A DNA stretch of 64,000 bases. Source: Psychroflexus salis. Lineage in GTDB: Bacteria; Bacteroidota; Bacteroidia; Flavobacteriales; Flavobacteriaceae. Position numbers and translations under genes: made by a program. The DNA lies in NCBI RefSeq assembly GCF_014640175.1, contig NZ_BMGL01000002.1, positions 186,001-250,000 on the forward strand, given 5' to 3'. Of the stretch, positions 10,130-26,415 are shown one piece after another; the first letter of the stretch is position 1, and every line of letters begins with the position of its first letter. Under the pieces are notes generated by a model. The model was not told the DNA's origin. It saw only the letters and a list, made by a program, of their open reading frames with translations, and made no database searches.

Positions 10130-10185
10130 GAAAATTGTTTTTATTTACAATAATAACAGAAATTAACTTGATTTTTTATACTTTT

Positions 10186-12912
10186 ATGAAAATTAAAATA
10201 TTAGGTTTGATGCACTCTATTTTACACTTCAAAAAAATACTTACTTTAAGTGTTTTTTTTATTTTTTGCTTATCTAGTTTTGCCCAGCAAACTAATTATT
10301 GGGAACAAGTAGTTTCTCCTTATATACAAAAGAGTTCACAAGCAACTACTTTTAAAAATTACTATACTTACCAATTGGATACAGAAGCATTTAAGACAGC
10401 TTTAAAAAATTCACCCCATCGTTTTTCTAATCAAAAAAGTACGGTAGAGATTGTGTTTCCTTCTTTTAATGGAGAATTAGAAAGCTTCCGAATATACGAA
10501 ACTGAAGTTTTGTCTTCAGCTTTAGCTGAAAAATTTCCATCTATAAAAACGTACATCGGTGTAAGTACTAAAAATAGGGAAACTAAATTAAACTTTAGTT
10601 TAACACCACAAGGAGTATTTGGAATGCTTGTGCAAAACCAACAAACTCTTTTTGTAAATCCTTTTTCTGCTGAAAATGAAATTTATATGGTTTTTAATAA
10701 GAAGCAAGCAAAACAAGAATTTACAGATAAAATGCTTTGTGAAGCTGATGATATTATGGAACAAACTAATTTGGGTACTTCTTATGATAATGTCCCTAGT
10801 TTAGTAGATAATTCAACACTAAAAAGATATCGTTTAGCCCTTGCGTGTTCAAGTTCATATTCTAATTTTCATTTAGCTCAAGCTTCTGTTCCTGAAACTG
10901 CATCTAATCAAGTAAAGTTAAGTGCGGTTTTAGCAGCTATGGTAGTAACTATTAATCGAGTGAATTTTATATATGAACGTGATGTTGCGGTAACGCTTCA
11001 GCTTGTTGCTAATAATGAAGACTTAATACAATTAGATGCTCAAACTGACCCTTACTCGGATACGGGAAATGATATTAATATAAATCAAGCTCAAATTGAT
11101 GCTGCAATTGGTAATTCAAGTTACGATATTGGACATGTTTTTAATACAGGTGGCGGCGGAGCTGCATCTTTTCAATCGGTTTGTAATCCACAATTTAAAG
11201 CAGCTGCTTATACAGGTTTGCCTAATCCTGTAGGCGATCCTTTTGATGTTGATTATGTGGCTCACGAAATAGGTCATCAATTTGGTGGAAGCCACACTTT
11301 TAATAATGAATGTGGAGGTGCAAGATCTTCTTTTACAGCCGTTGAGCCTGGAAGCGGAAGTACCATTATGGCATACGCAGGAATTTGTCCGCAGAATGTA
11401 CAAAATAACAGCGATGCTTACTTTCACATTGCATCGGTTTTTCAAATGCAGAATTTTATTTCAACTGGTGGTGGTTTATTTTGTGCTGAAAGTATAGATA
11501 TTACTAATACACCACCAAGTATAGATGTTCCATTGCAAAATTATACTTTACCTGTAAACACTCCCTTTTATTTAGATGTTACAGCATCTGATGCTGATGG
11601 AGATGAGCTTACGTATACTTGGGAACAATTGGATAACGAAACAGACTCACCGCAACCGCCACTTCCATTAAATATTGGTGGACCTAACTTTAGATCCTTA
11701 AGTCCAACAACCAATTCGATTCGTTATTTTCCAAATTTGAATTCTGTTGTTAACAATTTTAATCAAACTTGGGAAGTATTGCCAGCTATAGGAAGACAAA
11801 TGGAATTTGCTGTTTTAGTAAGAGATAATAACTTAGAAGCTGGACAAAATGTATTTGATACCACCAACCTTACGTTTATAAATAGTAGTGCTTTTGAAGT
11901 TACTTCGCAAAGTGAATCGGATATAATTTGGGAAGTTGGAGAAACAGAAACCATAACTTGGAATGTTGCTAATACGAATCAAGCGCCAGTCAATTCGAAT
12001 TTGGTTGATATTTTACTTTCTACCAATTCTGGTCAAGACTTTGACCTTGTTTTAGCGAGTAATGTTCCTAATACAGGCTCTGTAGATGTTACTGTGCCAG
12101 ATGTTTTTGGTCCAGCTTGTCGTGTGATGGTTCGAGCTAGCGATCATATTTTTTTCAATGTTAATACTGCTAATTTTAGTATTAATTCAGATGGCCAGTT
12201 AGAATGTGAAGAAGTAGCTAATACAACCCCAGTTTCAATTCCTGAAGGATTGGGGCAGAATGATCCAGGACCAGCAGCCACTTCTGTAATTAGCATTGAC
12301 GAAAGTTTAATTATTGAATCTATTAGTGTTTCTTTAGATATTACCCATACTTACATACAAGATTTAGGAATTTTATTAATAGGGCCCAATACCGAAAATG
12401 TAACCTTATTTAACCGCAACTGCTTAAACCAAGGTGGAATTGCTGTTGAATTTAGTGATTTTGGATCTCCGATTCCTGATACATGTCCAGATCCCTTAGC
12501 TGGAACTTTTCAACCAGCTACTGGAAATTTAAACCAATGGGTAGGAACTAATGCACAAGGAGATTGGACATTGCAATTACAAGATTTTTGGAATGAAGAT
12601 ACAGGACAGCTAAACTCTTGGTCTATTGAAGTTTGTGCTTCAAGTTTATCAACTATAAACCTAGAAGCAAATCGTTTCTCTATCATTCCAAATCCAAATA
12701 CGGGTAGATTTCAAATTAACTTTAAAAGTTTATCTAGTTCAAACTTAACAGGACAATTATTTGATTTGCAAGGAAAATTAATTCAAAATATTCAATTAAG
12801 ACCTGGTGTGTTAAGGCAATCTGTTCAGTTAGAAAATCTTCAAAATGGAATGTATCTGTTTAAAGTTATAGATGGACAAAATAGCTTTGTTGAAAAACTT
12901 TTAATACGTTAG
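10186..12912 (+). CDS. Secreted reprolysin-like zinc metalloprotease with P domain and T9SS tail
   Basis: About 908 residues. A signal peptide ends at SSFAQ. The protease domain carries the extended zinc motif HEIGHQFGGSH (near 11263) followed by the Met-turn segment TIMAYAGIC. Cadherin-like beta regions follow, then a proprotein-convertase P domain (from about SIPEGLGQNDPG to NSWSIEVC), and a C-terminal T9SS type A sorting tail (SIIPNPNTGRFQINF to VEKLLIR). It is predicted to cross the outer membrane by the type IX system and degrade external protein. The start is uncertain: an upstream TTG at 10135 is weak, while ATG at 10186 or 10210 both give a sensible signal peptide. Confidence 0.92.
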   Translation: MKIKILGLMHSILHFKKILTLSVFFIFCLSSFAQQTNYWEQVVSPYIQKSSQATTFKNYYTYQLDTEAFKTALKNSPHRFSNQKSTVEIVFPSFNGELESFRIYETEVLSSALAEKFPSIKTYIGVSTKNRETKLNFSLTPQGVFGMLVQNQQTLFVNPFSAENEIYMVFNKKQAKQEFTDKMLCEADDIMEQTNLGTSYDNVPSLVDNSTLKRYRLALACSSSYSNFHLAQASVPETASNQVKLSAVLAAMVVTINRVNFIYERDVAVTLQLVANNEDLIQLDAQTDPYSDTGNDININQAQIDAAIGNSSYDIGHVFNTGGGGAASFQSVCNPQFKAAAYTGLPNPVGDPFDVDYVAHEIGHQFGGSHTFNNECGGARSSFTAVEPGSGSTIMAYAGICPQNVQNNSDAYFHIASVFQMQNFISTGGGLFCAESIDITNTPPSIDVPLQNYTLPVNTPFYLDVTASDADGDELTYTWEQLDNETDSPQPPLPLNIGGPNFRSLSPTTNSIRYFPNLNSVVNNFNQTWEVLPAIGRQMEFAVLVRDNNLEAGQNVFDTTNLTFINSSAFEVTSQSESDIIWEVGETETITWNVANTNQAPVNSNLVDILLSTNSGQDFDLVLASNVPNTGSVDVTVPDVFGPACRVMVRASDHIFFNVNTANFSINSDGQLECEEVANTTPVSIPEGLGQNDPGPAATSVISIDESLIIESISVSLDITHTYIQDLGILLIGPNTENVTLFNRNCLNQGGIAVEFSDFGSPIPDTCPDPLAGTFQPATGNLNQWVGTNAQGDWTLQLQDFWNEDTGQLNSWSIEVCASSLSTINLEANRFSIIPNPNTGRFQINFKSLSSSNLTGQLFDLQGKLIQNIQLRPGVLRQSVQLENLQNGMYLFKVIDGQNSFVEKLLIR

Positions 12913-16285: not shown

Positions 16286-16362
16286 CAAATTCTCAAATCA
16301 CCATTCTCAAATCCAGAAATCTCAAATCATCATTTAGAAGTTATAAATCCTACATCCTAGAT
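16286..16362. repeat. AT-rich CTCAAATC phrase repeat
   Basis: Within the 175-base gap after the rhomboid gene, short phrases such as TCTCAAATC recur with irregular spacing (three clear copies) and are followed by ATCCTACATCC. Similar phrase arrays occur at 55590-55700, 55829-55891 and 57498-57650. Confidence 0.5.
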
Positions 16363-17091
16363 TCTCCTTCTTACAATTTCATATAAGAGAGCTCCACAAG
16401 CAACACTTACGTTTAACGATTCTATGTTGCCTAATAAGGGTAGTTTAACCTTCAAATCAACTTGTTTAAGAGTTGATGAGCTAATTCCCTTATTTTCATC
16501 ACCCATGATTAAAGCAAGTTTTGAGCTGATTTCTTGGCTATAAATATAGTTTTCGGTTTTTTCAGTTGCAGCAATTAGCTGTATACCGCTAGATTGAAAA
16601 TAGAATAAGGCATCGTGAACATGGTCAACTTTACAGATGGGAATGTTATATATGGCACCAGCTGAAGTTTTTACGGTGTCTTTATTTACACCTGCCGAGT
16701 TATTTTTAGGAAGGATAATGGCATCTACGCCTGTACATTCAGCCGTACGGATTATGGAGCCTAAATTTCGCACATCAGTAACCCCATCTAACACTAAAAA
16801 TAGCGGATTATCTTTTTTGGTTAAAATATCTTCTATTGTTTTTTCAAAATCTAAAAATTCTATAGGAGATACAAAAGCAATTATTTCTTGATGATTTAAA
16901 TGTTCGTATTTTTTGAATTTTACTTGTGGAACAAAACTGATTTTTACTTGTTGTTTTTTGGCTAGCTGGTTAATTTCTTCATAAAATTCATTGCGTTGTC
17001 CTTTATTGAGTAAAATTTTCTCAATCGCTTTTTCATTTTTAAGTGCTTCAATTACGCTATGAGCTCCGTATATTATTTCTTCTTTTTCCAT
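16357..17091 (-). CDS. rlmB: 23S rRNA (guanosine-2251-2'-O)-methyltransferase
   Basis: A 244-residue SpoU-family (SPOUT) methyltransferase. The N-terminal substrate-binding domain (IIYGAHSVIEAL to about 85) is followed by the knotted catalytic domain with motif 1 (DVRNLGSIIRTAE), motif 2 (LIMGDENKGIS) and motif 3 (LPLLGNIESLNVSVACGALLYE). These match RlmB, which methylates G2251 in the peptidyl-transferase P loop, more than the tRNA enzyme TrmH. A tRNA or other rRNA target cannot be excluded by eye. Confidence 0.88.
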   Translation of the reverse strand: MEKEEIIYGAHSVIEALKNEKAIEKILLNKGQRNEFYEEINQLAKKQQVKISFVPQVKFKKYEHLNHQEIIAFVSPIEFLDFEKTIEDILTKKDNPLFLVLDGVTDVRNLGSIIRTAECTGVDAIILPKNNSAGVNKDTVKTSAGAIYNIPICKVDHVHDALFYFQSSGIQLIAATEKTENYIYSQEISSKLALIMGDENKGISSSTLKQVDLKVKLPLLGNIESLNVSVACGALLYEIVRRRI

Positions 17092-17101
17092 GGTTTTGTG
17101 T

Positions 17102-17136
17102 AAAAAAAATACCCTGCAAATGTATGCAGGGTATTT
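17102..17136 (-). terminator. Intrinsic terminator after the subtilisin gene
   Basis: AAATACCCTGCA and TGCAGGGTATTT form a 12-bp stem with a six-base loop. Read on the minus strand it ends in a run of eight T residues, 21 bases past the stop of the S8 peptidase gene. Confidence 0.88.
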
Positions 17137-17157
17137 GATTAAATATTACTAAAAGAT

Positions 17158-19053
17158 TTATTTTTTTATAAATCTTTTAGTGATTAAACCTTCGTTTGTT
17201 TCTAACTTTAAAACATAGGTTCCTTGATTTAAATTACTTATATCAAAGGAGTAGTTTTTACTTAATTGAAGGATTTCTTCTTTGTAAACCATTCTACCCG
17301 TTACATCAAATACTTCAGCTTTAGCTTTACCACTTATATTTTCTTCAAAGCTTAGGTTTACTTGATTAGAAGCAGGGTTTGGCCATAAACTTAAGCCTAC
17401 TTGTTTTTCAAATTTATCACTACTCAATGTAGTAGCTGTAATACCTGTACCAATAATTGCATATTCTTGACTATTATTAGCTAAGTTTCCTTTATGTGTA
17501 ATTTCAACTGTATATATTGCGCCAGCAACTGGGCTGCTTACAATAACTTGTTCGTAATTATCAACAATATTGTCTCCTTTTATTGCTGGTGCTGTTACAT
17601 CAGTAAGTTGTAATTTCCATGGTAGAAAAGTTTCACCATTTAATGTAATTCTCAAGTCGAGATCATTAACCAATTTTGGGGTAGGAGAGTTTAGTAAATT
17701 ATTTACAGAAGTTCCAGCTGGGTCGTTCCAGCCGATCATGATTTTTAAATCTTCGTTTCCAGATGCGGTAACTTCAAAACTTAAACTTTCGCTTTGCGTC
17801 AATTCTTGTTCGCTAATTATTGAGCTTTCTATATCTTTATTTAATATAGTAGTTGCTGCCTTTTCTGTGTTAAGAATACCCCACCCATAGGTCGCATCTG
17901 GGCCTACATTACCTGCATCAGAAGCAGTATTTAGCGCCAATGCTTTTAATGTGTGAGATTTCAAATAGATACCGAATTCATTATTGTATAATTCTTGTAA
18001 TAATAGCAAACTTCCTGCTACACCTGGTGATGCCATAGATGTCCCAGTAGCAGTACCATAAGAATCGTTGGAACTTGCTGCTGTAGAAAATATATTTGTA
18101 CCCATACCTCCAATGTCTGGCTTTATTCTTCCATCATCTGAGGGTCCGCGACTACTTGAATTATTAATATTTGAAATTACTAGATCTCCAAAGTAAGTTA
18201 CGCTTGCTACATTGGCTACTACTAAATTGTTTTTTGCATTTTTATCTGATGTTAATTTGTCGTAATTAGGTGCTAATCCTCCTTCATATTCTTGGTTTCC
18301 GCTATTTCCAGCCGCGAAAACTGCCAAATGATAAGGTGCAGCGTTAGCTATTAAATCCCAGCTCCTTGCTCCATTATTATAAGCTCCCATAAACCAGGCA
18401 TCTATTGTCTCTCCATTTTCTTGCTCTACAGCTATTCCATATGAATGGTTAGAGATTAAAAAATTATCATCGTTAGCAGCAGTTTGCGCTTCTGTTTCCA
18501 CATTATTTACATCATATACTAATAAATTAGATTTAGAAGCCATACCACGTGCATCTGCATTTACACCGCTAGCACCTATTGTGCCTGTAACATGTGTAGA
18601 ATGAAAGGTGGAATTTGAATTGTTATCTGGTAAAGATATTCTGCTATTGGCACCATCCATGAATTCAACATGAGTAGTTCTTGTTGTACCACCTACTTCC
18701 CATATTCCAACATCCATATTTTCACCTTCAAGGTTTAGATTTAAACTCCCTCCGGGTTGTAGAGCAACTGTTTTTGTATTTGCTGCTGCTGTTGTATTAT
18801 CTGTAGATATATATATTGGCTTTCCCTTTAGTACATCATAAATTTGATGTATAGTATTTTCACTTACAATTGTTTCAGGAACATCATTTAAACTTAGAAA
18901 TGTTTTTACTCTTTGTTCCCTTTCTTGTACGATTTTATCGATTTCTCTTTTAATTTCTTCTTTGTCAGTTTGTCCAAAACTAGAAATGCTTACGGCTAGA
19001 AAAATTATAGCAACTAAATAGTCTTTCATTTTTTTCATGAATTTTTTTATCAA
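17158..19053 (-). CDS. Secreted S8 (subtilisin) peptidase with T9SS tail
   Basis: A 631-residue protein. A signal peptide ends at SSFGQ near residue 28. The subtilase domain shows Asp (MDVGIWEVGG), His (FHSTHVTGTIG), the oxyanion Asn (FAAGNSGN) and Ser (GTSMASPGVAG) in the expected order. A beta-sandwich follows (about 415-545), then a T9SS type A sorting tail (LWPNPASNQVNLSF to ITKRFIKK). Predicted to be exported by the type IX system and to degrade external protein. It lies after the SusC, SusD and lipoprotein genes, from which a hairpin separates it. The start could also be the Met at codon 6. Confidence 0.93.
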   Translation of the reverse strand: MIKKFMKKMKDYLVAIIFLAVSISSFGQTDKEEIKREIDKIVQEREQRVKTFLSLNDVPETIVSENTIHQIYDVLKGKPIYISTDNTTAAANTKTVALQPGGSLNLNLEGENMDVGIWEVGGTTRTTHVEFMDGANSRISLPDNNSNSTFHSTHVTGTIGASGVNADARGMASKSNLLVYDVNNVETEAQTAANDDNFLISNHSYGIAVEQENGETIDAWFMGAYNNGARSWDLIANAAPYHLAVFAAGNSGNQEYEGGLAPNYDKLTSDKNAKNNLVVANVASVTYFGDLVISNINNSSSRGPSDDGRIKPDIGGMGTNIFSTAASSNDSYGTATGTSMASPGVAGSLLLLQELYNNEFGIYLKSHTLKALALNTASDAGNVGPDATYGWGILNTEKAATTILNKDIESSIISEQELTQSESLSFEVTASGNEDLKIMIGWNDPAGTSVNNLLNSPTPKLVNDLDLRITLNGETFLPWKLQLTDVTAPAIKGDNIVDNYEQVIVSSPVAGAIYTVEITHKGNLANNSQEYAIIGTGITATTLSSDKFEKQVGLSLWPNPASNQVNLSFEENISGKAKAEVFDVTGRMVYKEEILQLSKNYSFDISNLNQGTYVLKLETNEGLITKRFIKK

Positions 19054-19060
19054 AAATAAA

Positions 19061-19089
19061 AAAACCTGACATTATAAATGTCAGGTTTT
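19061..19089 (-). terminator. Hairpin between lipoprotein and subtilisin genes
   Basis: AAAACCTGACATT and its complement form a 13-bp stem with a three-base loop. On the minus strand a T-rich tract follows. It lies 21 bases after the lipoprotein stop and 8 bases before the farthest upstream start of the S8 gene, so the protease is either separately promoted or expressed by readthrough. Confidence 0.85.
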
Positions 19090-19110
19090 ATGTTAAATAT
19101 ATTTTTACAG

Positions 19111-19845
19111 TTATTGAACTGTAAATTCAAAGGATTCTGAATCTCCAAAATTGCCACCATCAGCAGCTAATGTTCCATCACCCAAAATTAATTGGAATGA
19201 TCCTTCGCCAAAATCGCAGCAAATACCATCACCAAATGCATCATAAATTATGAACAAATATTCACCTGGTTCTGTAAAACATATACTTTCATTTGTTCCG
19301 TCTAATCCTGCACCATAAGAATTGCTAAACAATGGAGTATTTGATCCTTGTTGGTAAATTTCCCATGAAGTTTCTTCTGAGTAATCATCAAAAGTTATTA
19401 GAATAAATCCTTCTGTACCTGGACACTCTTCAACAACCGTAAAAGTTGTCGGCTCACTAAAGGTTAACCCATTCACTGATTCGCCAAAACTTAGCGTAAT
19501 CTGTGGATTAGAGCTTAAATCAAGTCCATTAAAACTGATCTCGAACTCACCTTTATTTGTTCCAGCTGGTATCATAGCTGTAGGAGCTAATTGATAATTT
19601 GATTCATCAATATTTGTTCCTTCAGCAACTACATTAACATCTAACATCAAATCACCAGAAACATTATTAGACGAATAAATATTTACTGTCGCGCTGCCAG
19701 TACCGTCAGCACTTACTTGGATATTTGTGTTATTAACATCAAAAGTTACATAGCCTTTCGCTGTAATCTCATCTTGAGAACAACTGCTTACAAAAGCAAC
19801 TACGCCCAATATGACCAAAATTTGTTTTATACGTTTCATTATCAT
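19111..19845 (-). CDS. Outer-surface lipoprotein with Calx-beta-like region and DGICC motif
   Basis: A 244-residue protein with a lipoprotein signal peptide and lipobox-like VSSCS, cleaved before Cys near residue 22. Residues 30-135 look like an immunoglobulin-type or Calx-beta sandwich (AMIPAGTNKGEFEISF). From about 140 a second domain follows, ending with the segment FGDGICCDFGEGSFQL, an acidic, adjacent-Cys motif I associate with extracellular Bacteroidota proteins. The start overlaps the SusD stop by one base, so they are cotranscribed. It may be a surface substrate-binding accessory of the SusCD complex; that is inferred from position only. Confidence 0.78.
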   Translation of the reverse strand: MIMKRIKQILVILGVVAFVSSCSQDEITAKGYVTFDVNNTNIQVSADGTGSATVNIYSSNNVSGDLMLDVNVVAEGTNIDESNYQLAPTAMIPAGTNKGEFEISFNGLDLSSNPQITLSFGESVNGLTFSEPTTFTVVEECPGTEGFILITFDDYSEETSWEIYQQGSNTPLFSNSYGAGLDGTNESICFTEPGEYLFIIYDAFGDGICCDFGEGSFQLILGDGTLAADGGNFGDSESFEFTVQ

Positions 19846-21377
19846 TATGGATTTTGAGTGTTAATTTCTGGATTATCTTGTATTTCTCTTTCTGGAATTT
19901 GGAAAGTCATACGATTATCGTTGTGAGGTATAATTTCACCTTGAAATGATAGGTGATTAGTACCCAATCTTTCAGCATTTCGTTGATTTCTTTTAATTGC
20001 CTGATAAGTCTTTCCTTCTCCCCACAACTCAATTCTTGTTTGTAAGAATATTTCATCTAATAGGTCTTGTCCTGAAAGTGTATTTACGTAAGATGCATCA
20101 GGTACTCTTTGGCTCATTAAACTGAATAAAGATTGTTGAGCAGCTCCGGTGTTTCCTGCTTTAGCATTTGCTTCAGCATTTAACAATAACATTTCTGCAT
20201 ACCGCATGTACACATAATCAGCTGAAACGACTTGCGATGCTCCACCGATTACTCTCCCAGAGTCGTAAAACTTATAGAAAGGTTGTAATGGGAAAATTGA
20301 AGCATTAGTACCCTGATTTTCTTGTGGGTGTCCAGAAAATTTAAATTGTAATTTTCTAATATCATCATTTGGGATTTGATCAAACAAATTACTATCAATC
20401 GTTTTAAAATCTCCAGCCCATGCATAACTATAAGAAAAATGATCAACCTGTCCCCACCAAGAAACTAATCCGATGTTTAAATCTTCATTAATATCGATAC
20501 CCCATAACCAGCCAGGTGTATTTACATCGTTGAAACCACCTAGTACTTCACCTTGATTCATAAGAGAAGCTCCACTTTCTGACATCACTTCTGAAGTTAA
20601 GTTTGCAACCTCTTGCATTCTTGACGTTTCTCTTGTTGATGCAATTACATAAGCTAGGATTCCTTTAGCAACAGTTTTATTGATTTGTGCTTTTCCGCTT
20701 CTTTGGAAAGTTTCAAGTAAATCGATTGCTTTGTTTAAATCTTCTTCCATTAAAGCATAAACTTCACTTGTAGTTGATCTCGGTAGACCTATTCCAATCG
20801 CAGCATCATAAAGTGGTAATACTTCATCATTTGGATTGTAATCATTAGCATAGTATAGGTGTAAATTGTAGTATGCAAATGCTCTAAGTGCAAGTGCTTG
20901 ACCTAAAATATGTTGATTGATTTCAAGTTCAGGAACATTGTCTGCACCACCTTGAATTGCTATCACTGTGTTAGCTGAACGAATAATCGTATAGTAAAAA
21001 GACCATACTTGAAGATTTTCACCGAATGTAAAATCTTGTGTAGATTGATATTCGGTTATTCCAGCTCTATACCAACCAAAAGTACTTACAGAAAGTGCCA
21101 TATCACTACTCAATAAATCTGAGTATAAGTCATGAGATTTGTGTCCGAAGTCATCATGTCTTCCATTTCCTCTTCCAGCAAATGTTTCGACCATATAAGC
21201 GTAAATACCATCAACAAATCCAACTGCAATAGCAGGGTTTACTTCGGCAGCTTCCTCAAGTTGCTGAATGTTTAAAAACTGTGATGGTTGCTCATCTAAA
21301 AAGTCACTCTCACACCCATACAATCCTATAAATAGCATTGTTAGGATTCCAATTTTAATTTGTTTTTTCATTTTCAT
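19845..21377 (-). CDS. SusD/RagB family outer-membrane substrate-binding lipoprotein
   Basis: About 510 residues. The signal peptide ends in a lipobox, FIGLYGCES, with Cys as the anchor. The helical TPR scaffold is visible from LRAFAYYNLHLYYAND, a classic SusD segment, and the C-terminal domain includes YVYMRYAEMLLLNAEANAKAG and RIELWGEGKTYQAIKRN. SusD proteins cap the SusC barrel and capture the nutrient. A farther upstream Met at 21395 would overlap SusC by 13 bases; Met at 21377 leaves a five-base gap and is preferred. Translationally linked to the lipoprotein gene downstream. Confidence 0.93.
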   Translation of the reverse strand: MKMKKQIKIGILTMLFIGLYGCESDFLDEQPSQFLNIQQLEEAAEVNPAIAVGFVDGIYAYMVETFAGRGNGRHDDFGHKSHDLYSDLLSSDMALSVSTFGWYRAGITEYQSTQDFTFGENLQVWSFYYTIIRSANTVIAIQGGADNVPELEINQHILGQALALRAFAYYNLHLYYANDYNPNDEVLPLYDAAIGIGLPRSTTSEVYALMEEDLNKAIDLLETFQRSGKAQINKTVAKGILAYVIASTRETSRMQEVANLTSEVMSESGASLMNQGEVLGGFNDVNTPGWLWGIDINEDLNIGLVSWWGQVDHFSYSYAWAGDFKTIDSNLFDQIPNDDIRKLQFKFSGHPQENQGTNASIFPLQPFYKFYDSGRVIGGASQVVSADYVYMRYAEMLLLNAEANAKAGNTGAAQQSLFSLMSQRVPDASYVNTLSGQDLLDEIFLQTRIELWGEGKTYQAIKRNQRNAERLGTNHLSFQGEIIPHNDNRMTFQIPEREIQDNPEINTQNP

Positions 21378-21382
21378 TTTTT

Positions 21383-24300
21383 TTAAAATTTGCAATTAAC
21401 ACCTAATGTGAATGTAGTTAAAGGAGCATAAAACCCTCTACCAGATAAACCACTTTGGCTAGTATTAGGTAAAAACCCTTCTCTTACACTCGACATAAAT
21501 AAATTATCTCCTGTCAAATATACATTTAAATTGCTTACTCCAACGCTGTTAATCAAATCTTTAGGAAAATCATAACCAATCATGAAGTTATTAAAAGCAA
21601 AGAAATCTGTTTTTGTTAAAAACCTTGTAGATAAAGATGAAGCGTTTGCATCTAATGCATCGGCTAATCTTGGTACACTAGTAATATCACCAGGTTGTCT
21701 CCATCTGTTTCTAATATCAGTATGGAAGTTATTTCCTGCTGCTCCAAAACGGTCAGTCATTAACTCTGAATATTGGCTATCATATCCGTAACCACCAATT
21801 TGGTATGTAAACTGAGTAGAAAGCATGAAGTTTTTATAACGTGCATTAATTCTAAATGCTCCTCTTAGATCTGGGATTGCTGATTTTCCAACAAATTTAT
21901 CAGTTGCTTCTGAATATGTTTTTGTAATTCTACGTTCTACAACTGCATCAGGATTTTCATTTAAATATGGAGTCATAGTTTGTATAACATCTCCATTATT
22001 TGTGTTTACATATTGATACCACATTGGTGCACCATCTGCTGGATCAACCCCTGCATATTCTCTCATGTAATATTCAAATATTGAAGAACCTTCTGCGTAA
22101 CCAAATCTACCATTTCTTGTAAGAATTGCTTCCTCACCAGTTGAAGGGTCGATTGGCATAGTTGTTAATTCGTTATTGAAAGTTTCACCATTTACACTTA
22201 CGCTTAATCCCCAATCTTGGGTTTCAACGATTCTTGCATTGATGTCAAATTCAAAACCTTGGTTTCTTAATACACCATCGTTAGTAGTAACTTGCGCTCC
22301 AGGAATCCCTGTTGAAGGAGGTAATCTACGAGCGAAGATTAAGTTTTGGGTATCTTTTATGTAATAATCTAAGTTTACATCCAAAAAGTCAAATAATGTA
22401 GATTCCGCTCCAAATTGATACATATAAGCTGTTTCCCATGTAAGGTTTGGATCTTGAGCTTCTCTAATAGAGAATGCGAAATTACCACCTAAATTTAACG
22501 GATTGAAAGTATCTATACCAGTGTAGAATCCTACACCATTTTCATCTCCAGTAATACCCCAAGATGTTTTTAATTTCAAGAAATTAACTATGTTATTATC
22601 GAATAAAAAGTCTTCTTTGGTCATAACCCAAGACGCACCAACTGAACCAAATGTATCCCATTTGTCGTTAGCAAATCTCGACGAGCCGTCTCTACGAACA
22701 CTTCCTGAGAAGAAATACTTTCCGTCGTAATTATAATTAACTTGTCCAAAATAAGACTCTAATGTTCTTCTTGAATTATAACCGAATGGTTGTCTTAAGT
22801 TCTCTAAATAGTTATTTAATTCGTATAAACCAGGAATTACCGCTAAGGCCTTTCTTGATGAATGGATATTAAAATCGAATGTATTAGACTCGTGAGCTAC
22901 TAATGCTTCAACAGAGTGGTCTCCAAATTTTTTGTTGAATCTTAATAATTGCAATGCATTAGTTGTTAAACGCTCTTGATTAGAAAGAGTAATGTCTCCA
23001 CCTTGCTCTGCAGCTGTTCCGTAGAATGGGTTTCTAGCATTTCTTTGTGTAGTATTACTGTACTGTGCTCCAAAACTGGTTTCAAACTTCAAATAATCAG
23101 TAATTTTCACATCTAATCTAAAAGAACCATTCATCTCATGTCTATCGTTTCCATTGAAATCTAATAAAGCAGCTCCGATAGGGTTCAATAAGTTAGCGTT
23201 TGGTCTTGCTCTAAATCCAGAAGGAGATCCATAATCAAATTGGTTTCCACCGTATATTGGATCAGGAACTAAAACACCATCATCATCTCTTAAATATACT
23301 GGGAAAATAGGCGCCATCTTGTCTGCAAATTCAAATAAGTTTTCTGCACCATCTGTTTGTCCGTTGGCTACAGTTTCTGAGTATGCATAACCGATATTTG
23401 CACTTAGGTCTAACCAATCTTTTACTTTAGATTGAACGTTTGCTCTTGTTGTATAACGTTTATAGCCTGTGTTTATAGCATAACCCTCGTCATCTAATAA
23501 ACCTGCCGATACAAAGTATCTTGTTCTTTCATTTCCACCACCCATTCTTAGGTTAGCTTCGTTTCTTACAGAAGTACTAAAACCAACATCTGCGTAACGT
23601 TCTGGTGTAAATCTTCTTTGAACACCATCTCTAACCATGCTAGTAGCAGGGTCAATTAGTTGACTTACATCATTGGTATCCCACATGTTGTATCCAGCAG
23701 GGATTACATTAGCTGAAAATAAATTTTGATTAGCACGGTTAATTGCTAAACCTTCATTAAATCCTTCAGCAACTGCTCTATTGTACAATCCTTCCCATAC
23801 TGCACCAACATACTCTTCTGGTGATTTCATAACATCATATCTAGGTATTACCTGAGAGTTGATACCACTTCTTAAGTCTACTTCAATGTAGTCTTCACCA
23901 GATACACCACCTTTAGTTTCAATTAAAATAACACCATTTGCACCACGAGAACCATAAATAGCTGTAGCAGTTGCATCTTTTAAAATAGTAGTACTTTTAA
24001 TATCACTTGGGTTAATTGAGTTAATGCTTCCTGAGAATGGAACACCATCTACTACGTATAATGGAGCACGGTTACCATTTACTGACCCAAAACCACGAAT
24101 ACGTACTTGCGATGTCGTACCTGGTTGCCCAGAAGTATTAATAACATTTACCCCTGCAGCTTCACCAGCAAGTGCTTGCGATACGTTAGAGAAGTTTTTG
24201 TTAGATAAAGTTTCTCCAGATACAGTTTTTGCTGTTCCTGTAAAAGATTCTTTAGTCGCTGTACCATAACCTACAACCAGCACTTCGCCAAGTTCTTCGG

Positions 24301-24595
24301 CAGATGGTTCTAAGGATACGCTGATGTTAGATTTGTTAGCTACTGTTGCTTCAACTGTTTTGAAGCCGATGTAACTAAATTCTAAAACATCACTCGGAGA
24401 TGCTTGAATAGCATACTCTCCATTAAAATCTGTTTCGGTTCCGCGGTCTGTTCCTTTCACTTTAACACTCACTCCAGGTAGAGGAATGTTAGCATTGTCT
24501 GAAACTGTACCACTAACCGTTTTTTGTTGCGCAAAAGTTATTTGCACCAAAAACACTAGTAATAGTGTTAGAATAAAACTAAACTTTGTTCTCAT
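21383..24595 (-). CDS. SusC/RagA family TonB-linked outer-membrane protein
   Basis: A 1070-residue protein. A signal peptide ends at ITFAQ (residue 22), followed by the carboxypeptidase-like beta domain (VSGTVSDNANIPLPGVSVKVKGT, about 27-100), a TonB-box-like EVLVVGYGT segment near 104-112, the plug (SQVRIRGFGSVNG to TAIYGSRGANGVILIETK) and a 22-strand barrel ending in VNCKF. With SusD it forms a TonB-dependent importer. No glycan-active enzyme is in the locus, while a secreted subtilisin is, so peptides are the likely cargo (compare RagAB of Porphyromonas). Confidence 0.95.
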   Translation of the reverse strand: MRTKFSFILTLLLVFLVQITFAQQKTVSGTVSDNANIPLPGVSVKVKGTDRGTETDFNGEYAIQASPSDVLEFSYIGFKTVEATVANKSNISVSLEPSAEELGEVLVVGYGTATKESFTGTAKTVSGETLSNKNFSNVSQALAGEAAGVNVINTSGQPGTTSQVRIRGFGSVNGNRAPLYVVDGVPFSGSINSINPSDIKSTTILKDATATAIYGSRGANGVILIETKGGVSGEDYIEVDLRSGINSQVIPRYDVMKSPEEYVGAVWEGLYNRAVAEGFNEGLAINRANQNLFSANVIPAGYNMWDTNDVSQLIDPATSMVRDGVQRRFTPERYADVGFSTSVRNEANLRMGGGNERTRYFVSAGLLDDEGYAINTGYKRYTTRANVQSKVKDWLDLSANIGYAYSETVANGQTDGAENLFEFADKMAPIFPVYLRDDDGVLVPDPIYGGNQFDYGSPSGFRARPNANLLNPIGAALLDFNGNDRHEMNGSFRLDVKITDYLKFETSFGAQYSNTTQRNARNPFYGTAAEQGGDITLSNQERLTTNALQLLRFNKKFGDHSVEALVAHESNTFDFNIHSSRKALAVIPGLYELNNYLENLRQPFGYNSRRTLESYFGQVNYNYDGKYFFSGSVRRDGSSRFANDKWDTFGSVGASWVMTKEDFLFDNNIVNFLKLKTSWGITGDENGVGFYTGIDTFNPLNLGGNFAFSIREAQDPNLTWETAYMYQFGAESTLFDFLDVNLDYYIKDTQNLIFARRLPPSTGIPGAQVTTNDGVLRNQGFEFDINARIVETQDWGLSVSVNGETFNNELTTMPIDPSTGEEAILTRNGRFGYAEGSSIFEYYMREYAGVDPADGAPMWYQYVNTNNGDVIQTMTPYLNENPDAVVERRITKTYSEATDKFVGKSAIPDLRGAFRINARYKNFMLSTQFTYQIGGYGYDSQYSELMTDRFGAAGNNFHTDIRNRWRQPGDITSVPRLADALDANASSLSTRFLTKTDFFAFNNFMIGYDFPKDLINSVGVSNLNVYLTGDNLFMSSVREGFLPNTSQSGLSGRGFYAPLTTFTLGVNCKF

Positions 24596-24630
24596 TTTGT
24601 TATTTATTTGAATTAGCCAACGCCAAAAGT

Positions 24631-24638
24631 CAAAATTA
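24631..24638 (-). promoter_or_regulatory. Candidate -7 element for the SusC operon
   Basis: Minus-strand TAATTTTG matches TAnnTTTG, 35 bases upstream of the SusC start. A TTG lies upstream but only 13 bases away, so the -33 part is not convincing. No sigma or anti-sigma gene is adjacent. Confidence 0.4.
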
Positions 24639-24714: not shown

Positions 24715-26415
24715 TCAAAAAAAACTGCTTAAACTAAGATGAACTTGCGTATTTTCGAATGAAAAATCTTGTGTTTTTGATGTTCCGTTAGCGAAAATAA
24801 GCCTTAAAACTCCAGCTTGAGTTTCAATTCCCAATCCAAAACCAAAACTAAACAGATTTTCACCTATTCTTTCTCGTTCATTTTCGAAATAGCCATAATC
24901 GAAAACAGAGTTTGCATATAAGCTTGAACTCAAAAAGTATCGCAACTCTGTGCTTAAACTGCCAAATGTCGAAGCTACTATGCTATTCTCTTCAAAACCC
25001 CTGATATTGTTTATGCCTCCGAATCGAAATAATTCATTGTCGTAATAAGTAGATGATCTAAGCCAGGCTATTTGTGTTTTTGTGTGTAAAACTAATTTTT
25101 TGGTTAATAGTAAATCGTAGGTTGAGTTCAGCTTTATTCTTAATTGGTTGTCATTTGTTTCTGAAGAACGTTTGCCACTTGATGCAGTTAAAGTGATTTT
25201 TTTTTCATTGAAAAAATTTCCAGTGATGTTATCTTGTTTTGAATAATTTATTTTTGCACCATAAAAAACTGAAGTAAAGTCGCTACCATTAGCTGTTGAA
25301 TTTAACGAGTTGTTTAGTAAGATGCTAGATTGCGTAAAATCTGCTTCTGTTCCAATACTTAATAGTGGATTAATTTGATAATTGAGACCCACAAATTGCA
25401 TGCTGTTTGAAAATGTTGAGTCTTTTCTGAAGATTTGTAATCCAGCTTCCAAGCTCACGGGGCTATTAAATATGTAAGCTAAATTTAAGTTTGCATTAAA
25501 ACGTTGCTGTTCTCTTCCGTCGTTTTTGTACTCGATTGCTAAGGATTCCCCAAGGTGAAGGTTGTTGATCAGTGTTAAGTTTATATACCCATTCAGTTCT
25601 AATGAAGTTTCTTCGGTGCTATTAAACCCAATAAAGCCATCAAAAGTGTTTGCATTGTTTCTTTGTGTGTAGAGAAAAATTTTAGTTGAGTCTGTTGTGA
25701 ATTGTACTTCTGGATCTTTTACGCTCGATGCAAATGCAAGATTTTCGAAGTTTTTGTTTTTATCTCTAATTTTTTCTAAATCAAATACGCTCCCTTCTCT
25801 GTAGCCTAATTTATATTTTGCAAAAGCAATTGGGAATTTTTCGTAACCTTTAATAATGATTTTATCGATTGTTCTTTTTTTGTTTTGCTTGAACTCGATT
25901 TCTGCTGTAATATATCCATTTTCAGCTTCCTTTAGATTTGTAAGTTTAAATTGATCAAACGGTCTACCTTGTTTGTTTAAAATTTCTAAAGCTTGTTTGG
26001 CGAATTCTTTAAATTCTGTAAAGGACATGTATAGGTGTCCTTCTTTTTCGGGGAATTCCGTTTTCTTAAATATAAACGAATCTGTATTTTTTCTGATTTT
26101 AATTCCTTTGTATCTTTTATTCAGCTTTAAATTTGCTTGGTAGACGTTATTTTTTATTTCTTCCAAAGAATGAACTTCCGCAAATATAAATCCCTGCTCT
26201 TTCAGTGTTGCAACTAAGTTGTACGTGTAGTCGCTAAGCGCTTTGGTGTTTTTGAATTCTGTTTTAAAAGAAAACTCTTCAATATATTTATTATTAATTT
26301 TGTCTAAGGTATTTATTTCAAGGCGAATATTTGCATCTTCTTGCGCATTTGCTAAAAATGTACCTAGGGCAGCAATAATGCAATAATGAATAAGAAGCTG
26401 TCGGCAATAAATCAT
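24715..26415 (-). CDS. Omp85/BamA-TamA family outer-membrane protein
   Basis: A 566-residue protein with a signal peptide ending near LANAQ. The N-terminal 250 residues are alternating alpha-beta POTRA-like units (KKRTIDKIIIKGYEKFPIAF begins one). The rest is a C-terminal beta barrel, with the Omp85 signature FGGINNIRGFEENSI (the RGF tripeptide of strand loop 6) and a terminal Phe after an alternating hydrophobic strand (VHLSLSSFF). It is shorter than BamA. Likely assembles or translocates outer-membrane proteins, or is TamA-like. It is divergent from rpsL and upstream of the SusC gene. Confidence 0.85.
   Translation of the reverse strand: MIYCRQLLIHYCIIAALGTFLANAQEDANIRLEINTLDKINNKYIEEFSFKTEFKNTKALSDYTYNLVATLKEQGFIFAEVHSLEEIKNNVYQANLKLNKRYKGIKIRKNTDSFIFKKTEFPEKEGHLYMSFTEFKEFAKQALEILNKQGRPFDQFKLTNLKEAENGYITAEIEFKQNKKRTIDKIIIKGYEKFPIAFAKYKLGYREGSVFDLEKIRDKNKNFENLAFASSVKDPEVQFTTDSTKIFLYTQRNNANTFDGFIGFNSTEETSLELNGYINLTLINNLHLGESLAIEYKNDGREQQRFNANLNLAYIFNSPVSLEAGLQIFRKDSTFSNSMQFVGLNYQINPLLSIGTEADFTQSSILLNNSLNSTANGSDFTSVFYGAKINYSKQDNITGNFFNEKKITLTASSGKRSSETNDNQLRIKLNSTYDLLLTKKLVLHTKTQIAWLRSSTYYDNELFRFGGINNIRGFEENSIVASTFGSLSTELRYFLSSSLYANSVFDYGYFENERERIGENLFSFGFGLGIETQAGVLRLIFANGTSKTQDFSFENTQVHLSLSSFF

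Follow-up and report, generated by a model that had tools for sequence, protein, structure and literature searches.

According to the retrieved portions of the sources cited here, RagAB and BT2263-2264 are known examples of peptide uptake by SusC/SusD-type (SusCD) systems (cited in PMC10132118), and the rag locus of Porphyromonas gingivalis, a proteolytic organism, has four alleles for which horizontal transfer has been proposed (PMC11817032). In Flavobacterium psychrophilum, the SusCD pair THC0290_2100/2101 is upregulated with a collagenase and a peptidyl-dipeptidase, and the proposal of oligopeptide import rests on this coexpression (PMC9723704), while the polysaccharide utilization locus (PUL) TRV642_0198 to _0209 of Flavobacterium collinsii combines SusCD genes with five peptidases and is predicted to serve oligopeptide uptake (PMC10132118). 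Here, we describe a four-gene unit in a stretch of 64,000 nucleotides (the window) from Psychroflexus salis, family Flavobacteriaceae (contig NZ_BMGL01000002.1, positions 186,001 to 250,000). The unit encodes a SusC/RagA-type transporter, a SusD/RagB-type lipoprotein, a further surface-lipoprotein candidate, and an S8 subtilase with a sorting domain of the type IX secretion system (T9SS) (Table 1). We consider it probable, at roughly 0.6, that these genes form an importer without carbohydrate-active enzymes (CAZymes) together with a dedicated, T9SS-exported subtilase, and that they occupy a chromosomal slot in which the importer has been replaced over evolution and the borders have stayed. The sequence data show the gene content, the T9SS tail, the linkage of protease and SusCD genes across genera, the presence of two slots, the importer turnover, and a terminator-like hairpin maintained ahead of the protease gene; an active protease, a peptide cargo bound by the lipoprotein, a separate transcript for the protease, and the mode of replacement are inferred.

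The comparison with described systems is one of partial likeness. RagAB is likewise a SusCD-type pair that varies between alleles, but the window SusD is not a close relative of RagB (profile E 4e-15, behind 17 other sequences), and the slot has a far wider range of types (SusC identity of 23 to 36% between many of them) and an attached subtilase gene. BT2261-2264 of Bacteroides thetaiotaomicron also joins SusCD with a surface lipoprotein (PMC10132118). Its SusD, BT2263, is the more distant by fold, as detailed below. To our knowledge, no protease is part of that system. The peptidase families named in the retrieved portion of the F. collinsii report are S9, S37, M24, and M43, with no S8 and no slot described there. 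Full-text literature searches, which covered open-access papers mainly and left subscription papers mostly outside, found no paper on the slot or on a unit that joins S8 to SusCD, and a report on a ragB/susD mutation in Flavobacterium johnsoniae (PMC10197871) had no bearing on them. When a SusCD pair lacks CAZymes, it is often labeled “unknown,” as in the F. collinsii table (PMC10132118), and the slot would extend the variation known from the rag locus to a large family of environmental protein-recycling bacteria.

The unit and its slot

The original prediction had all four genes running in one direction without a glycoside hydrolase among them. Both points are borne out: the list of open reading frames (ORFs) and the domain matches place the four genes on the minus strand, and Pfam gave no CAZyme in the unit or in its two border genes. 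Neither a CAZyme nor a regulator was found among the 16 ORFs of ≥100 amino acids between 12000 and 30000 (7 by Pfam and the rest by eye, the latter being housekeeping genes or one spurious frame). As listed, the SusC and SusD genes overlap by 13 bp and the SusD and lipoprotein genes by 1 bp. A SusC signature, plug, and barrel with an adjacent SusD-fold lipoprotein identify the unit as a SusCD importer, and the CAZymes beside SusCD that define a PUL are absent from it, whereas the genome's three other SusC genes over the TIGR04056 cut-off adjoin such enzymes (GH5; GH16 and GH3; GH13 and GH2).

The slot was followed through 27 Psychroflexus genomes, of which 25 were assessable (all but G007 and G016). 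The BamA-like gene and rlmB lie on one stretch, with a SusCD unit or nothing between them, in 21 of these 25; among the remaining four, the stretch of G006 ends in the S8 gene, the slot of G021 is on two contigs, and the upstream border is unreached in G012 (a fragment) and G024. Beyond the BamA-like gene, rpsL is found in 16 genomes and other genes in G002, G006, G009, G010, G013, and G026; since this neighborhood varies, the BamA-like gene and rlmB are taken as the constant borders. An S8 gene follows the SusCD unit in 16 of the 25 slots (G000, G001, G003, G004, G005, G006, G008, G011, G012, G014, G015, G019, G021, G022, G024, and G025). The slot of G017 (L202, reverse strand; a draft of 79% completeness) is empty, with the BamA-like gene directly beside rlmB. 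Tandem content also occurs: two SusC genes in G004 and at least three SusCD pairs each in G012, G023, and G024, of unlike types.

Two slots show local irregularities. In G012, about 1.4 kb between the SusD and S8 genes (L208, 17178-18579) replaces the lipoprotein gene and holds an HTH_32 ORF; it looks like the remnant of an insertion element. In G009 (L206, 7307-11852), SusC and SusD are each split into two frames, by decay or assembly error.

The subtilase and its linkage to SusCD genes

The C-terminal sorting domain (PF18962, TIGR04183) marks the subtilase as type A T9SS cargo, and the closest solved relatives of its S8 domain are SubHal (5fax, E 1e-23) and KP-43 (1wmd, E 3e-23). These are Bacillus enzymes that are not known to have a T9SS tail or a transporter partner. 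The genome encodes a single C25 peptidase, in keeping with the sortase PorU (one PF01364 match, E 2e-105, in a 1297-aa frame; the T9SS search was confined to C25). This peptidase and the complete type A tail argue against the notion that the TonB-dependent transporter helps to export the protease, for which Oar and PopC of Myxococcus offer a precedent (PMC6434023, retrieved portion) and which we regard as very improbable. All 34 SusCD-linked S8 genes retain the His, the oxyanion Asn, and the Ser (alignment of 35 rows, with the window present twice).

Linkage was surveyed from both sides. When 199 family genomes, roughly one for each genus, were scanned for the S8 protein (E ≤ 1e-120, with scoring of the six best candidates in each genome), 12 genomes outside Psychroflexus matched, and S8 lies beside SusCD in 11 of them. 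Nine of these loci are in the first slot (rlmB was seen in eight, an rpsL/BamA-like border in one), and two are in a second slot bordered by rnhB and a Porin_10 gene. The SusCD types of the 11 loci differ, and in five the gene order is SusC-SusD-S8-lipoprotein. At the twelfth match, in G145, SusC is absent, and the locus consists of a row of S8 genes with a long frame. From the other side, the best 80 of 312 named loci with the nearest SusDs comprise 34 in the first slot (defined by rlmB, or by rpsL plus the BamA-like gene, on the stretch), 28 beside an RNase HII or Porin_10 gene, and 18 with neither, the last including some on short contigs or outside the family. The second slot houses cassettes of the same SusD subfamily; one of its two loci from the S8 scan is the Mangrovimonas locus of the SusD-based set.

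A 38-row S8 tree made by a quick method, which left out ten of the eleven linked loci of the family-wide scan, has a branch (support 99) with 17 Psychroflexus slot genes and 7 second-slot genes on one side and, on the other, 13 other S8 relatives, mostly from longer frames, together with G020. The S8 gene of G006 groups inside those of the second slot (support 100). Since the S8 gene in the slot of G020 is inverted and groups with the other relatives, it was left out of the linkage count. Nine records of plasmid-borne S8 were found, none covering 80% of the query.

The original prediction also held that a 13-bp hairpin between the lipoprotein and protease genes would lower the protease dose. 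The hairpin was found (Table 1), but its positional conservation and a candidate promoter for the protease are no less compatible with separate transcription. Over the region as such, terminator-like sites show no enrichment (7 versus 5.4 ± 2.0 in shuffles). An automatic count gave an upstream hairpin for 24 of 34 linked S8 genes; with a stricter length limit, one lies ≤170 nt upstream in 22 of 32 SusCD-linked S8 loci, far above chance (shuffles: mean 0.37, maximum 3), compared with 0 of 15 SusC/SusD and 0 of 14 SusD/lipoprotein junctions, which are a weaker control because these stretches are mostly coding. When 15 Psychroflexus junctions were folded, with G021 left out, a strong hairpin lay 5′ of S8 in 13, with unrelated sequences; in G012 a hairpin is retained before the inserted stretch, and in G024 there is none. 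The position of the hairpin is conserved and its sequence is not, and for this reason the protease gene may be transcribed as a unit of its own. The pattern suggests a transcript end after the importer genes and, less surely, a transcription start of the protease's own. The Bacteroidota −7 box has the consensus TAnnTTTG, and 9 of 32 loci have such a box no more than 70 nt from the start of the protease gene, against 2.5 expected (9 was reached in 1 of 300 shuffles). The case for a promoter is weakened by the absence in the window of a TTG at the usual spacing from the candidate box and by the lack of enrichment of the box upstream of SusC (4 of 16 versus 3.1). With position kept, sequence changing, and the TAnnTTTG box, a mere attenuator is not favored over a separate transcription unit.

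Turnover and probable transfer of the importer

The importer in the slot varies far more than the border genes. G021 and G025 share 92% identity in RlmB, 87% in the rhomboid protein, and 87% in the BamA-like protein, but 34% in SusC and 52% in S8; G004 and G024 share 94% in RlmB, but 36% in SusC and 22% in SusD. At 55% identity, 31 SusC genes (30 from Psychroflexus slots plus G035, from the second slot) form 13 types. On a host tree of RlmB and rhomboid sequences (22 genomes, including G102; G006, G009, G017, and G018 were not placeable), with the type read from the cassette closest to rlmB, 11 changes of SusC type are required, 7 being the least possible, and a single clade of hosts with window-type SusC is rejected (approximately unbiased test, p 4e-77). 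The SusC type of G002, G010, and five more genomes occurs without a regular S8 gene (six have none and G020 has the inverted one), and all 16 S8-bearing Psychroflexus slots carry other types.

A transfer is indicated by G102, a genome of another genus. Compared with G003, its cassette is 76% (SusC), 74% (SusD), 68% (lipoprotein), and 60% (S8) identical; outside the cassette, the values are 44% (RlmB), 51% (rhomboid), 31% (BamA-like), and 70% (rarA). Differential loss fails here because the cassette is far closer than the border genes, and the likeness is, judged by these identities, one of cassette transfer between lineages, protease included. We tentatively propose, as a nearly even call, that the BamA-like/rlmB interval acts throughout the family as a hub at which peptide importers are exchanged: whole SusC-SusD-lipoprotein cassettes flanked by conserved core genes would be replaced within and between genera and between two slots, with a one-clade T9SS subtilase as recurring partner. 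If this is true, the bacteria retain the protease (the “knife”) and change the importer (the “mouth”). With numerous divergent SusCD types in surroundings that are otherwise alike, and with a recurring protease, cargo specificity would be testable by whole-cassette swaps.

Extreme divergence between nearly identical flanks and the empty slot of G017 could also arise if the slot held surface receptors changing mainly under phage or bacteriocin attack, with the protease defensive or acting on surface proteins and the type of nutrient secondary; the rag locus of P. gingivalis is similarly variable (PMC11817032, retrieved portion). This explanation is improbable, as it leaves the constant company that a one-clade T9SS subtilase keeps with importers unexplained.

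Weighing the reading

Several observations on the linkage, the exchange, and the cargo weigh against the importer-plus-subtilase reading. SusCD occurs without S8 in seven Psychroflexus slots (G002, G009, G010, G013, G018, G023, and G026); six of the seven have a second ORF of ∼270 to 300 aa with, by eye, a lipobox-like start (G009 has a fragment), and the two of these ORFs that were run against Pfam had no match. Among the 80 nearest SusD loci, seven have S8 beside them (P. planctonicus, four Winogradskyella records, strain ALC-1, and Mangrovimonas). Other partners are found, namely, arylsulfotransferase-like proteins (in P. planctonicus, with a T9SS tail, and in Christiangramia) and an FG-GAP protein. 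After correction for RlmB, the partial correlation of S8 with SusC (r = 0.51) is moderately above that of the controls, rhomboid (0.32) and BamA-like (0.33), and below that of SusD (0.98) and the lipoprotein (0.78); this ranking is used without p-values because the controls also reach p near 0.001. Finally, residue 119 of the window S8 (ORF numbering) is Glu at the expected catalytic Asp position (WEVGG). By motif assignment, 19 of the 34 linked genes have Asp at that position and 15 have Glu, the latter being present in 14 of 17 Psychroflexus slot genes (window included) versus 1 of 17 in other genera.

The arylsulfotransferase-like genes stand after S8 or after the lipoprotein gene (L187, 10511-12163, in the P. 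planctonicus slot; L112, 12275-13597).

The synteny of protease and SusCD genes to which the original prediction appealed is therefore upheld in one direction only: from the protease, by 16 of 25 Psychroflexus slots and 11 of 12 matches elsewhere, and not from the transporter, given the 7 of 80 SusD loci and the seven S8-less slots. Because linkage holds from the one side and fails from the other, the importer is, on this gene-order evidence, the core and S8 an add-on, which is almost always accompanied by an importer. A protease without functional link, which merely occupies a busy site and is carried along by anything that moves, would account for the 73 of 80 nearest SusD loci where S8 is missing, for the hairpin, which suggests partly separate expression, and for the control genes that covary somewhat with SusC. 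We think this quite unlikely, as 11 of 12 homologues found regardless of SusD adjoin SusCD, in two unrelated slots and in two gene orders.

With regard to exchange, the SusC types show more clustering on the host tree than shuffled labels do (11 changes versus 13.8; as low in 3 of 200), and the tandem arrays of several genomes have some types in common; the variation within the genus may therefore be array loss instead of exchange. It is a real possibility, if not the favored one, that no exchange took place and that lineages kept different members of an old tandem array of SusCD pairs: one SusC type is common to all four genomes with tandem SusCD (G004, G012, G023, and G024), another is common to G012 and G024, and identities of same-type SusC and of RlmB are often close (60 and 62% for G000-G001, 64 and 61% for G003-G024, and 89 and 85% for G005-G008). 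Opposed to it are the G003-G102 cassette, far closer than the border genes, the S8 gene of G006 within the second-slot group, and the 13 SusC types among 31 genes, which would demand a large ancestral array. Within the genus, part of the pattern may stem from tandem arrays that lost different members.

With regard to cargo, the SusD model, built from a 64-row alignment, is nearest to structural-genomics SusDs whose ligands are not given (Z 36 to 40), followed by RagB (30.9 to 31.5), starch SusD (30.7), laminarin SusD (30.4), and the peptide transporter BT2263 (22); by profile, E is 4e-19 for laminarin SusD, 4e-15 for RagB, and 1e-6 for starch SusD. RagB and starch SusD tie by fold, and the model does not set RagB apart from the SusDs that bind sugar. 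Searches for BfUbb-ButCD and BT1439-1440 yielded nothing on their ligands. In the lipoprotein model (pLDDT 93.1), residues 28 to 138 match DUF1735-type structures (Z 10 to 11), and its sole Pfam match, PF08522, is below the cut-off (19.9 versus 25.9 bits). The C-terminal domain of the lipoprotein also occurs in other ORFs, among them ORFs for T9SS trypsin-like, thioredoxin-like, and endonuclease I proteins, and the latter two matches rule it out as protease specific.

The fold of the SusD is as close to sugar-binding SusDs as to RagB, the lipoprotein N-terminal domain matches that of EndoBT-3987, most loci of the SusD subfamily are without S8, and the presence of peptidases in a glycan PUL has been taken to point to a glycoprotein substrate (PMC6298971, retrieved portion). 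The cargo could thus be glycans or glycopeptides released elsewhere, with the protease stripping the protein part of a glycoprotein and the sugar-cleaving enzymes encoded elsewhere in the genome. This is unlikely, since the locus is without CAZymes while the genome's three other SusCD loci have them and since the protease accompanies such importers in both slots. Uptake of peptides is the preferred reading because a T9SS protease accompanies CAZyme-less importers in two slots and has moved with one between lineages. On that reading, the subtilase would be exported by the T9SS and would cut protein at or near the cell surface, the lipoprotein and SusD would capture the resulting peptides, and SusC would import them with TonB energy.

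Table 1. Features of the four-gene unit, its junctions, and its borders (positions in the window)
Feature	Position	Strand	Evidence or remark
SusC/RagA-type TonB-dependent transporter, 1070 aa	21383-24595	-	TIGR04056 705.8 bits (cut-off 368); TIGR04057 above cut-off; plug; CarboxypepD_reg
SusD/RagB-type lipoprotein lid	19845-21395	-	PF07980 and PF14322 above cut-off; AlphaFold model pLDDT 84.6
Surface-lipoprotein candidate, 244 aa	19111-19845	-	DUF1735-like (Calx-beta-like) N-terminal domain and C-terminal beta-domain
Terminator-like hairpin, lipoprotein/protease junction	19061-19089	-	13 pairs, loop of 3, T tail
Candidate Bacteroidota −7 promoter box, TATTTTTG	19051-19058	-	Motif match to consensus TAnnTTTG; 5′ of protease ATG at 19038
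S8 subtilase, KP-43/SubHal-like	17158-19053	-	PF00082 98 bits; start probably ATG 19038
Type A T9SS sorting domain, S8 residues 556-631	17161-17388	-	PF18962, TIGR04183
Terminator-like hairpin 3′ of protease gene	17107-17136	-	
BamA-like outer-membrane protein, upstream border of slot	24715-26415	-	TIGR03303, POTRA, and ShlB all below cut-offs; adjoins rpsL-rpsG-fusA in window; border recurs
RlmB 23S rRNA methyltransferase, downstream border of slot	16357-17091	-	TIGR00186 219 bits (cut-off 160); border recurs

About 3.4 kb past the RlmB border, the window holds a second T9SS-tailed protease, a reprolysin-like M12B protein with a P-domain (10135-12912, plus strand).

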